From a virus, in IMG/VR virus record IMGVR_UViG_3300036719_000100, positions 1 through 32,999 of that record: a DNA stretch of 32,999 nucleotides; one strand, given 5' to 3'. This document shows positions 1-32,999 of this stretch, one piece after another (within the stretch, counting starts at the first letter, position 1; each line of letters starts with the position of its first letter). Position numbers and translations under genes: made by a program. The notes under the pieces are model-generated. The model saw only the letters and a program-made list of their open reading frames with translations, made no database searches and was not told the origin of the DNA.

Positions 1-254
1 TGAAGATGCGTTGATTGAAAGCATGATAACTCAAGCAAGAGAGGCTATTGAACAAATTACTAATTTAAGCCTAATCCCTCGTCAAGTAGAGGTATGGTTT
101 TGTAATGAAGGGGCAAACTTTGAATTGCCATTTGGTCCAGTAACTTATTTCCTTTCTTTATACGATAATAACGGAGATGAAATTGATAGCAACGATTATA
201 AACTAATTGGCGGTGCTTATCCTAAGGTTAAATACCCAGCACAAAACGACATGA
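1..254. repeat. Left copy of near-identical contig-end repeat
   Basis: These 254 bases recur at 32746-32999 with five substitutions (positions 88, 94, 112, 124 and 127 of this copy) and no gaps. The repeat lies wholly inside the head-tail connector gene, so it is best read as the wrap-around of a circular or circularly permuted genome, not as a dedicated terminal repeat. The mismatches mean the two ends do not come from one identical molecule. Confidence 0.9.
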
Positions 255-424
255 AAGCGACTTATAACGCTGGTTTTGACTGTATCCCACAAGACCTTAA
301 AATAGCAATATTAGACCAAGTAAGTTACGATTACGAGAATAGAGGTTTAGACGGCAACTCTGGTATTTGTGAGAAAACATATAGAGCGTGTCAAAGATGG
401 ACTAAAACTTCGCCAATATTATAA
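2..424 (+). CDS. Head-tail connector (gp6-like adaptor), 5'-truncated here
   Basis: This is the 3' part of a phage gp6-like head-tail connector, which forms a ring below the portal and joins the capsid vertex to the tail. The window opens inside the gene; the other copy at 32642 supplies the missing start and about 35 residues. The opening residues (EDALIESMITQAREAIEQ) match the helical N-terminal hallmark of the gp6/gp15 connector family, followed by a beta-rich region with LPFGPV. It stops just before the ATG of the next gene (426), as in a co-translated head-tail joining operon. The codon at 11 is TTG and is not the true start. Family assignment is by sequence pattern and gene order. Confidence 0.85.
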   Translation, partial: EDALIESMITQAREAIEQITNLSLIPRQVEVWFCNEGANFELPFGPVTYFLSLYDNNGDEIDSNDYKLIGGAYPKVKYPAQNDMKATYNAGFDCIPQDLKIAILDQVSYDYENRGLDGNSGICEKTYRACQRWTKTSPIL

Positions 425-20809: not shown

Positions 20810-20986
20810 ATGAGTTACATAGACAATAAAAGCTATTATATCAAGATGAACCAGATTCTTGAATTAGAGAATGAGATGCTAAGAAAACAAATTAAAGAAC
20901 TAAAACAAAAACTAAATGAACTACTGGACCCAACCTATAATGAAGGAAAAATCGGGGCTAAAAAGCCAAATCAAAATGGCGGATAG
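20810..20986 (+). CDS. Small coiled-coil protein (58 aa) overlapping the DnaA-like gene
   Basis: A 58-residue protein: MSYIDNKSYYIKMNQILELE continues into NEMLRKQIKELKQKLNELL, a leucine-heptad coiled coil likely to dimerise, and ends in a basic tail (KIGAKKPNQNGG). Its 3' part overlaps the start region of the DnaA-like gene in another frame. It begins one base after the previous stop. Function unknown; a partner or regulator of the DnaA-like protein is a possibility from overlap alone. Confidence 0.5.
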   Translation: MSYIDNKSYYIKMNQILELENEMLRKQIKELKQKLNELLDPTYNEGKIGAKKPNQNGG

Positions 20987-21254
20987 CGTAATTGAGAAAG
21001 TGGCTGCCTTCTATGGTATGTCTAACTCGGATATTAGAGGCAAATGCCGAAAGCGTGAACTGGTTAAAGCCAGATGGATAGCTATGTATTATATTAGGGA
21101 GAAAACAGACTTTACCCTAAATACCATTGGCGATATGTTTGGGCGAGACCATACTACGGTTATTCATGCCTTAGAAACAATTAAGGATATTATGTCTTTA
21201 AAGTACGAAACCGATTTAAAAGAGGATTTGATAAATATTAAAAGATTTATTTGA
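20916..21254 (+). CDS. DnaA domain IV-like DNA-binding protein
   Basis: A protein of up to 112 residues containing only the C-terminal DNA-binding domain of DnaA: IEKVAAFYGMSNSDIRGKCRKRELVKARWIAMYYIRE, then LNTIGDMFGRDHTTVIHALETI. GRDHTTVIHA (76-85) is the DnaA signature that contacts the box, and R53/R77-type residues are retained. The AAA+ ATPase domain is absent. It could bind DnaA boxes to recruit, compete with or displace host DnaA. Start choice is uncertain: ATG 20916, 20940 or 20976, the last giving a 92-residue domain with only 11 bases of overlap with the upstream gene. A perfect DnaA box follows two bases after the stop. Confidence 0.85.
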   Translation: MNYWTQPIMKEKSGLKSQIKMADSVIEKVAAFYGMSNSDIRGKCRKRELVKARWIAMYYIREKTDFTLNTIGDMFGRDHTTVIHALETIKDIMSLKYETDLKEDLINIKRFI

Positions 21255-22422: not shown

Positions 22423-22704
22423 ATGAAAGTATTAAACATTTGTCAAGAAGACATTAAATGGAAACCAGTACAAACTAAATCTGGAGTAAAACATTACGCA
22501 AACATTGCAGTAGATTATCTTAAAGAACCAGATGATAAAGGAAATACAGTTACCGTTTGGAATAATCAAACTCAAGAAGAACGAGCAGAAAAGAAGAAAA
22601 AAGAGTATTGCGGAAGAGGCAAAGAATATAAATTCGATGCTAAAAAAGAATACGCAAATACAAACAAACAAGAACAAGAAGACCACGATAATATGCCATT
22701 TTAA
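22423..22704 (+). CDS. SSB-like protein with acidic C-terminal tip
   Basis: A 93-residue protein. The N-terminal half (MKVLNICQEDIKWKPVQTKS, KHYANIAVDYLKEPDDKGNTVTVW) is beta-rich and fits a small OB-like or similar fold; the second half is charged and probably disordered. It ends QEDHDNMPF, like the acidic DDDIPF-type tip by which SSB proteins recruit partners. This makes it a strong candidate for a phage single-strand DNA-binding protein, consistent with its neighbours. I cannot verify the fold from the sequence alone. Confidence 0.55.
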   Translation: MKVLNICQEDIKWKPVQTKSGVKHYANIAVDYLKEPDDKGNTVTVWNNQTQEERAEKKKKEYCGRGKEYKFDAKKEYANTNKQEQEDHDNMPF

Positions 22705-22923: not shown

Positions 22924-22931
22924 TATATTTG
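22901..22931 (+). promoter_or_regulatory. Promoter TTG-N20-TATATTTG
   Basis: TTG at 22901-22903 and TATATTTG at 22924-22931 are separated by 20 bases, among the best promoter matches in the window. It drives the structured leader and the DnaD-like gene. The predicted transcript start is near 22937. Confidence 0.65.
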
Positions 22932-23021
22932 TAACGGATGTAGGATATCCATTATTAAACTTATTGGCTCAAAGCTGAACCCCTAATCCTACTGGGGGGG
23001 ATGCCGAGAGCCTTTTTATTT
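22932..23021 (+). ncRNA. Structured leader RNA, possible kissing-loop element
   Basis: Hairpin 1 is GGAT (22936-22939) / ATCC (22947-22950), extended by TAA/TTA across one mismatch, with the seven-base loop GTAGGAT. Hairpin 2 is CCCC (22980-22983) / GGGG (22994-22997) with a ten-base loop containing ATCCTAC (22986-22992), the exact complement of loop 1. An outer stem GGCTC (22966-22970) / GAGCC (23008-23012) is followed by five T. The leader ends at ATG 23022. It does not match any riboswitch I know. It could be an attenuator, translational control element or origin-associated structure. Confidence 0.5.
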
Positions 23022-23777
23022 ATGAAAAATAATAGTTTTTATTTTAGCCATGATTACAATGCGGCTAATGATACTAAGATTTTATTTCTTAGGCATCAAC
23101 TTGGTATGGAAGGTTACGGAATTTATTGGTTTCTCATTGAGCAATTAGCCAACGCTGGAGGTCGTTTACCTTTAGAATTAATTCCAGTTTTAACAATGCA
23201 AATGCAATCAACAGATGTTAAAGTTAATGGAGTAGTACACAATTTTGACCTATTTAAGATTGAACAAGGAGAGTTTTATTCCGAACGCTTAGAGGACCAT
23301 TTACAACTTAGATTAAAGCTAAGTGAAAGCGGCAAAAATGGGGCGGCTAATAGGTGGGCTAATAGGGGTGCTATTGGGGAGGCTAATGCAAAGGAAAGGA
23401 AAGAAAAGGAAATAAAAGGAAAGGAAAACAAAGAAAATAAAACAAAGGAAAGTAAAAGTAAGGCACTCACGCTTTTTAGTGAAAGTATTTATAACGATAT
23501 AAAAATATTTGAGTCAAGTTTTTTGGGTACTCAATATGAAGGTGCTAATTTTACCTACTATCACGAGGTTATAAAAAATTGGTCAGATTCTACTGGAAAC
23601 AAAAAAAGGGATTGGATTGCCACCGCAAAAAATTGGATGGCAAAGGATATGACAAAAGGAACTTTTATTGACAAAAATTATAAGCCAAATGCAAATAATC
23701 AAACAAAATCAAGAATTAGCCACGCTACCGAAGAACAGTTTATCCAAACTGCTTTTAAACGCAATGGCGGTTGGTAG
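23022..23777 (+). CDS. DnaD-like replication initiation protein (DUF4373-like)
   Basis: A 251-residue protein. The N-terminal domain (SFYFSHDYNAANDTKILFLRHQLGMEGYGIYWFLIEQLANAGG) matches the DUF4373/Lin1244 winged-helix type found at the start of DnaD-like phage initiators. A Lys/Glu-rich linker (about residues 125-150) separates a C-terminal domain with YYHEVIKNWSDSTGNKKRDWIATAKNWMAKD, similar to the DnaD C-terminal YxxxxNW pattern. Such proteins load host helicase at the phage origin. I chose ATG 23022 over ATG 23001, which lies inside the leader stem. The gene is followed by an overlapping gene at 23764. Confidence 0.78.
   Translation: MKNNSFYFSHDYNAANDTKILFLRHQLGMEGYGIYWFLIEQLANAGGRLPLELIPVLTMQMQSTDVKVNGVVHNFDLFKIEQGEFYSERLEDHLQLRLKLSESGKNGAANRWANRGAIGEANAKERKEKEIKGKENKENKTKESKSKALTLFSESIYNDIKIFESSFLGTQYEGANFTYYHEVIKNWSDSTGNKKRDWIATAKNWMAKDMTKGTFIDKNYKPNANNQTKSRISHATEEQFIQTAFKRNGGW
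23389..23462 (+). repeat. Purine-rich AAAGG-type low-complexity tract
   Basis: This stretch of degenerate AAAGGAAAGG-like repeats is nearly all purine and encodes the Lys/Glu linker of the DnaD-like protein. It is probably prone to length change by slippage in steps that keep the frame; no selective function is evident. Confidence 0.65.
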
Positions 23778-32641: not shown

Positions 32642-32999
32642 ATGTACAGTTATAGGAATGATTACCAATTTTCTAACAATGCTCCAGTAACAGAGCCAGT
32701 TACACTTGCAGAGGCTAAATTGTATTGTAGAGTAACGACATCTACTGAAGATGCGTTGATTGAAAGCATGATAACTCAAGCAAGAGAGGCTATTGAACAA
32801 ATTACTAATTTAAGCCTAATCCCTCGTCAAGTTGAGGTGTGGTTTTGTAATGAAGGTGCAAACTTTGATTTACCATTTGGTCCAGTAACTTATTTCCTTT
32901 CTTTATACGATAATAACGGAGATGAAATTGATAGCAACGATTATAAACTAATTGGCGGTGCTTATCCTAAGGTTAAATACCCAGCACAAAACGACATGA
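32642..32999 (+). CDS. Head-tail connector (gp6-like), 3'-truncated by window end
   Basis: This is the 5' part of the gene seen truncated at the window start. It supplies the true start, MYSYRNDYQFSNNAPVTEPV, then TLAEAKLYCRVTTSTEDALIESMI, the family hallmark (a variant of the L.EAK.YLRV...DD.LI motif). The two copies together give a complete gene of about 176 codons. Where the copies overlap they differ at five bases, all at third codon positions; one changes Glu to Asp, the other four are silent. Confidence 0.85.
   Translation, partial: MYSYRNDYQFSNNAPVTEPVTLAEAKLYCRVTTSTEDALIESMITQAREAIEQITNLSLIPRQVEVWFCNEGANFDLPFGPVTYFLSLYDNNGDEIDSNDYKLIGGAYPKVKYPAQNDM
32746..32999. repeat. Right copy of near-identical contig-end repeat
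   Basis: This copy aligns without gaps to positions 1-254. The five differences fall in a 40-base stretch; the other 214 bases are identical. The offset gives a genome unit of 32,745 bases if the ends are joined. Confidence 0.9.

Follow-up and report, generated by a model that had tools for sequence, protein, structure and literature searches.

The leader of the repZ/repA mRNA of ColIb-P9 and IncB plasmids forms a pseudoknot in which a hairpin loop pairs with a short segment further downstream; the regulation also involves a leader peptide and an antisense RNA. The ColE1 RNAs, RNA I and RNA II, meet through kissing loops of 7 nt that are fully complementary, and this intermolecular antisense contact controls replication. 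Two kissing 7-nt loops are also found in the purine riboswitch, where an outer stem closes the three-way junction that contains both hairpins. In the Pistol ribozyme, the pseudoknot strand itself is not a hairpin loop. Single-strand-binding proteins act on phage mRNA leaders: in the T4 gene 32 leader pseudoknot and the M13 gene II leader, such a protein recognises the leader and controls translation, and T4 gene 32 encodes the very protein that binds its own leader. The putL RNA of phage HK022, about 70 nt with two stem-loops, is positioned just downstream of an early promoter (PMC9378689).

The element described here was found in the virus record IMGVR_UViG_3300036719_000100, of which a stretch of 32,999 nt, hereafter the window, was analysed. 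The protein stretches encoded at the two ends of the window (1-424 and 32642-32998) are the same but for a single residue (FELPF/FDLPF), which reflects either terminally redundant ends whose repeat is imperfect or variation between strains at the joint. The leader lies on the plus strand within 22,932-23,021, before the first gene of a replication operon (23022-23777, plus strand), whose product is of the initiator or helicase-loader type with a DnaD-like Lin1244_N domain (PF14297, E 1.7e-9; phrog_2562, replication initiation protein, E 7e-13). Its first hairpin, P1 (22936-22950), has the stem GGAT/ATCC and the loop L1 GTAGGAT (22940-22946). A single-stranded linker (22951-22965), near-invariant in alignments and ending in the conserved AACTTATT, leads to hairpin P2/P3 (22966-23012); P1 is therefore not enclosed by P2 but lies upstream and outside. 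The outer stem P2a pairs GGCTC (22966-22970) with GAGCC (23008-23012) and is followed by an internal loop, by P2b (GC/GC, 22974-22975 and 23003-23004), by the internal loop TGAA/GGAT and by P3 (CCCCTA/TGGGGG, 22980-22985 and 22993-22998). P3 carries the loop L2 ATCCTAC (22986-22992), which forms a 7-bp kissing helix with L1. Between P2a and the start codon ATG at 23022 is a U-tract, TTTTTATTT (23013-23021), with 85% T in its first 8 nt. The preliminary description of this locus, made from the single sequence, had reported the loop GTAGGAT in hairpin 1, its complement within the loop of hairpin 2, and the outer stem followed by a T-rich stretch before the ATG, and all of these are present at the places given. 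The second loop does not merely contain the complement, however: each of the two kissing loops has a length of exactly 7 nt. The seven consecutive G which it had singled out are likewise there (22994-23000) but are not conserved among relatives, being one version of the P3 strand and internal loop.

The relatives are uncultivated contigs. With the Lin1244_N protein as query, 49 viral loci were found, and the leader was directly upstream in 47 of the 47 in which the gene start was present. A pattern made of P1 and the linker, ignoring the downstream gene, retrieved at least 100 stretches; among the matches listed, nearly all unique stretches were true leaders with perfectly complementary loops; L125 matched by chance. 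A second pattern added further leader types, for example P1 AGGT with loops already known from P1 GGAT leaders, so stem and loop vary independently. The third sample was picked solely by the 93-aa gene that neighbours the leader, and 79 of its 80 phage loci had the leader, while the contig of the 80th ends 177 nt past the 93-aa gene, short of the expected place.

Covariation was analysed in an alignment of 53 distinct leaders, which was fitted to the nested stems P1, P2 and P3 and not to the kissing pairs, because the model cannot hold them. Standard pairs filled 98.7% of the pair cells, and 21 of the 24 pairs had changes on both sides: three of the four in P1 (100% of cells paired), all 13 in P2/P3, each in at least one relative, and five of the seven in the kissing helix. 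The covariation score reached 0.639; shuffles scored 0.177 and slid structures no more than 0.135. The kissing cells were Watson-Crick in 371 of 371 cases, with no G-U, whereas the stems held 39 G-U cells on the sense strand, which marks the sense strand as the RNA strand. In a tree-aware null (home-made, R-scape-like but not R-scape), parsimony substitutions were re-dropped on a FastTree tree; the first run gave 9 significant column pairs, all inside the structure, and a run with 44 unique cores gave 10, again all inside the structure, three of them among the seven kissing pairs. One variant has a P1 of 5 bp and its loop is still 7 nt. Folding one sequence could not decide the matter: its energy does not stand out (z -1.3 to -1.6), and under the default energy model two loop bases are paired within hairpin 1. 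The comparison does decide it. That z is what would speak for chance complementarity in one leader, an explanation which is refuted by the covariation above every control and by eleven different loop pairs, among them the inverted ATGCGAC/GTCGCAT, every one of them perfectly complementary. The preliminary description had judged chance unlikely and had named covariation in the loops as the test on which its proposal of a folded RNA with a loop-loop contact would fall; the test was run and the element survived it. On comparative grounds, the stretch before the replication gene is confirmed as a real, conserved RNA structure in which two 7-base loops pair.

The -7 element of Flavobacterium, TAHHTTTG, has its G at -5 (PMC6847099). 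In the window, a Bacteroidota-type -7 element with the sequence TATATTTG is positioned at 22924-22931 (plus strand; numbering after PMC6847099), and this is what the strong promoter earlier noticed just upstream should be corrected to; a scan for sigma-70 sites was set aside as not meaningful for Bacteroidota. In nearly all relatives, 4-6 nt separate TTTG from P1; with the G at -5, this puts the predicted 5' end of the RNA at P1 or at most two bases before it (here 22936), which leaves almost no free 5' end. From this predicted transcription start, the leader would span the whole 5'UTR (86 nt here). Owing to an in-frame ATG within the leader at 23001, ORF callers place the gene start seven codons too early (MPRAFLF); this ATG is not conserved in all relatives, so that 23022 is the likely start. 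From the end of P2a to the ATG there are 9-13 nt in 53 of 53 leaders. At three other places in the window, TAACTTTG is followed by exactly 4 nt and then by an ATG (6502, 24670 and 30702), and leaderless mRNAs are predicted there. The ATGs behind these promoters fall on the predicted +1, so the long folded leader is an exception in this window. The host phylum is probably Bacteroidota, judging from the -7 promoter and the terminase kinship to Flavobacterium phage 11b (52% identity), which together with Cellulophaga phage phi10:1 is the closest cultured phage by terminase.

The leader is not special to the DnaD-like gene. Gene context was compiled for 83 distinct leaders (85 rows minus two reverse-strand artefacts), and 77 of them precede genes of the replication-initiation or helicase-loader type (Lin1244_N, DPAxLFY, AIFRKVHV, RFTDTEKW and HTH_36), the RFTDTEKW type, which matched no family, being placed among the initiators by position only. 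Five others precede NUMOD4-HNH genes, and one precedes a DNA methylase gene, itself followed by an initiator. Loop types are common to these gene families, and the leader has the same placement before unrelated first genes. The initiator is separated from the leader by an HNH-like gene in L357 and L321 and by a GIY-YIG-like gene in L351 (both names by eye), and the leader keeps its spacing to the ATG; together with L135 and L079, where HNH-like, GIY-YIG-like or DNA methylase genes likewise lie exactly between the two, these loci mark a recurrent insertion point. NUMOD4-HNH endonuclease genes with their own copy of the leader were seen at L017:4026-4550, L059, L133, L159, L168 and L169; the loop in these copies is always GTGAGAT, and they have their own compensated loops. 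The leader thus looks like a portable, exchangeable control cassette.

These copies also bear on the idea, raised in the preliminary description, of an ssDNA or origin structure; an origin structure might, for example, be a primer RNA. The position before replication initiators would suit an origin, and the 7-nt kissing loops recall ColE1 RNA I/RNA II, but a second copy with other loops stands before HNH genes elsewhere in the genome, away from the initiator, the G-U cells favour a sense RNA, and no conserved antisense promoter CAAANNTA was found within 250 nt after the ATG in the 53 leaders by a scan for the -7 consensus. An origin role is therefore very improbable, and the ssDNA part of the proposal is not supported. 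By the same scan, an antisense-controlled rep leader of the ColE1 or IncB type was rejected. The phage leader shares with ColIb-P9 and IncB the pairing of a loop with a downstream sequence in the leader of a replication-initiator mRNA, which there controls translation, but it pairs two full 7-nt hairpin loops and shows no antisense promoter of the -7 type. With ColE1 it shares fully complementary 7-nt hairpin loops, which here belong to one 5'UTR and would pair intramolecularly.

A search of the window with Rfam 15 (4227 models) gave no match at the gathering threshold; the leader at E up to 10 gave three chance matches only, and seven variant loci at E up to 1 gave none. This agrees with the earlier remark that the leader resembles no known riboswitch class. 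The purine riboswitch, with its two kissing 7-nt loops, was rejected because it gave no Rfam match and P1 is here outside and upstream, not enclosed by P2; the Pistol ribozyme was rejected because it gave no Rfam match either and the partner strand is here the loop of hairpin P3. A ligand-sensing riboswitch with an aptamer embedded in a terminator stem could account for the compact tertiary fold, the conserved linker and the purine-rich internal loops beside an expression platform, and an HMP-PP aptamer embedded in a terminator offers a precedent (PMC6478431). Against it, the internal loops differ in sequence between leader types, the first genes (replication, endonuclease, methylase) have no common metabolite, and no Rfam family matched, so that such a sensor is improbable. 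By DNA, the phages in INPHARED gave only chance short matches and no cultured phage with the leader, which is absent from Flavobacterium phage 11b, Cellulophaga phage phi10:1 and Polaribacter phage P12002L. Among 395 Bacteroidota genomes there was one weak chance match, inside a coding region. An exact-pattern scan of genome contigs gave two matches that are not leaders, one of 16.7 bits inside a gene and without the kissing loop, the other without a covariance-model match, and weak matches in G009/G010 fall within a coding region (read for G010), by eye a lysozyme-like gene. Literature searches, which did not cover the 2017 survey of 224 candidate RNAs, found no description of such a leader. 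From its sequences, the leader is best called a new family of structured phage mRNA leader, outside Rfam, and its architecture is unusual, two complete 7-nt loops being predicted to kiss within one molecule in a complex that spans the 5'UTR.

The A of the U-tract keeps a constant distance to P2a and not to the ATG in the 53 leaders, so the tract belongs to the RNA element; the other start regions of the window are A-rich (51% A). Terminator scores were above zero in 37 of the 53 leaders, and the leader median was reached by none of 106 U-tailed control stretches of the window. Negative scores were obtained for the other 16, to which all of the seven HNH copies and the TATTTTATTT types belong, and obligatory termination is therefore not established; the terminator tool's own scan, which has a loop limit of 8, did not list the leader. 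Bacteroidota ribosomes do not use Shine-Dalgarno pairing. In Flavobacterium, base pairing between -20 and +20 is lower, and more so for highly translated genes (PMC6847099).

We consider it somewhat more probable than not, at roughly 0.55, that in a group of tailed phages the leader is a cis-acting 5' RNA which constitutes the entire 5'UTR of the replication-initiation operon and lowers expression of the first gene until a factor acts. The leader would fold during transcription, the kissing helix would lock hairpin 2, and the closed P2 stem with the U-tract would lower first-gene expression by early termination before the gene, by hindered 30S binding, or by both. A factor appearing in infection would then unfold or bind the leader and so time the production of the replication initiator, and homing endonuclease and methylase genes directly behind the leader would come under the same control. 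That the AUG distance is the same before unrelated first genes, and that the U-tract is anchored to P2a, points to control of the first gene at the leader end, whether in termination, translation initiation or both. This reading, already among those of the preliminary description as an attenuator or translation-control element and still the best one, is favoured by the covariation with its controls, the whole-UTR placement before unrelated genes, the neighbour-selected loci, the anchored U-tract, the positive terminator scores, the portable HNH copies and the low pairing around start codons in Flavobacterium. It is weakened by the below-zero terminator scores and by the finding that no mutually exclusive alternative fold, as in a classical attenuator, is conserved among the leaders; all helices are compatible within one fold, which suggests a single locked structure and a factor that opens or binds it.

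The kissing helix may instead serve activation or stability, not repression. As a 5' stabiliser or translation enhancer, the folded 5' cap would protect the mRNA, present a free U-rich start and raise expression, in keeping with a P1 that starts at the predicted +1 to +3, a single fold with no switch and a U-rich stretch before the AUG that is outside every conserved helix. A plain 5' hairpin would suffice for protection, though, and the strict Watson-Crick kissing, the conserved internal loops and linker, and the P2-AUG spacing across unrelated genes would go unexplained; we hold this to be unlikely, if the most serious of the competing explanations. A put-like antitermination RNA, in which the nascent leader binds RNA polymerase for read-through of terminators in the replication operon, is improbable. 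The leader resembles HK022 putL in size (about 70-90 nt), in its two hairpins and in its position just after an early phage promoter, but putL, for which no kissing loops are described, acts on RNA polymerase and is not tied to a start codon (PMC9378689). Such an element does not require a fixed distance to the AUG, single HNH genes with their own promoter do not need it, and near-complete phage records mostly have one leader copy each.

For the regulatory leader favoured here, a candidate factor by analogy is the neighbouring SSB-like protein. The 93-aa protein (22423-22704, plus strand; phrog_24909, unknown) has an SSB-like acidic C-terminal tip, D-L/M-P-F, which is kept in 20 of its 21 members. 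Of 60 leader loci whose upstream sequence exceeds 1 kb, 47 have its gene just upstream of the leader. It is a candidate phage SSB and a possible trans-factor binding the leader, an idea weakened by an assignment that rests on the C-terminal motif and by a low-confidence fold model (pLDDT 55). T4 gene 32 and M13 gene II are likewise phage mRNA leaders, although the SSB-like binder is here only a candidate, and in contrast to T4 gene 32 the first genes behind the kissing leader are unrelated to each other. The window also encodes a stand-alone DnaA C-terminal (DNA-binding) domain (20916-21254; PF08299, E 2e-24) without the ATPase part. More tentatively, and somewhat short of even odds, the leader may represent a phage-specific RNA class in which the kissing complex is a closed ring over the 5'UTR that gates the first replication gene via a factor of the phage or the host, for which the SSB-like neighbour is one possibility, and in which unrelated replication, endonuclease and methylase genes were captured by a portable cassette.

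In many uncultivated phages, the replication module begins with this well-supported, undescribed RNA structure. The leader would be a handle on replication timing in phages of a phylum without Shine-Dalgarno pairing, and its swappable 7-nt loops make the mechanism directly testable through compensatory mutations. The copies before homing endonuclease genes point to a control cassette that can be exchanged.
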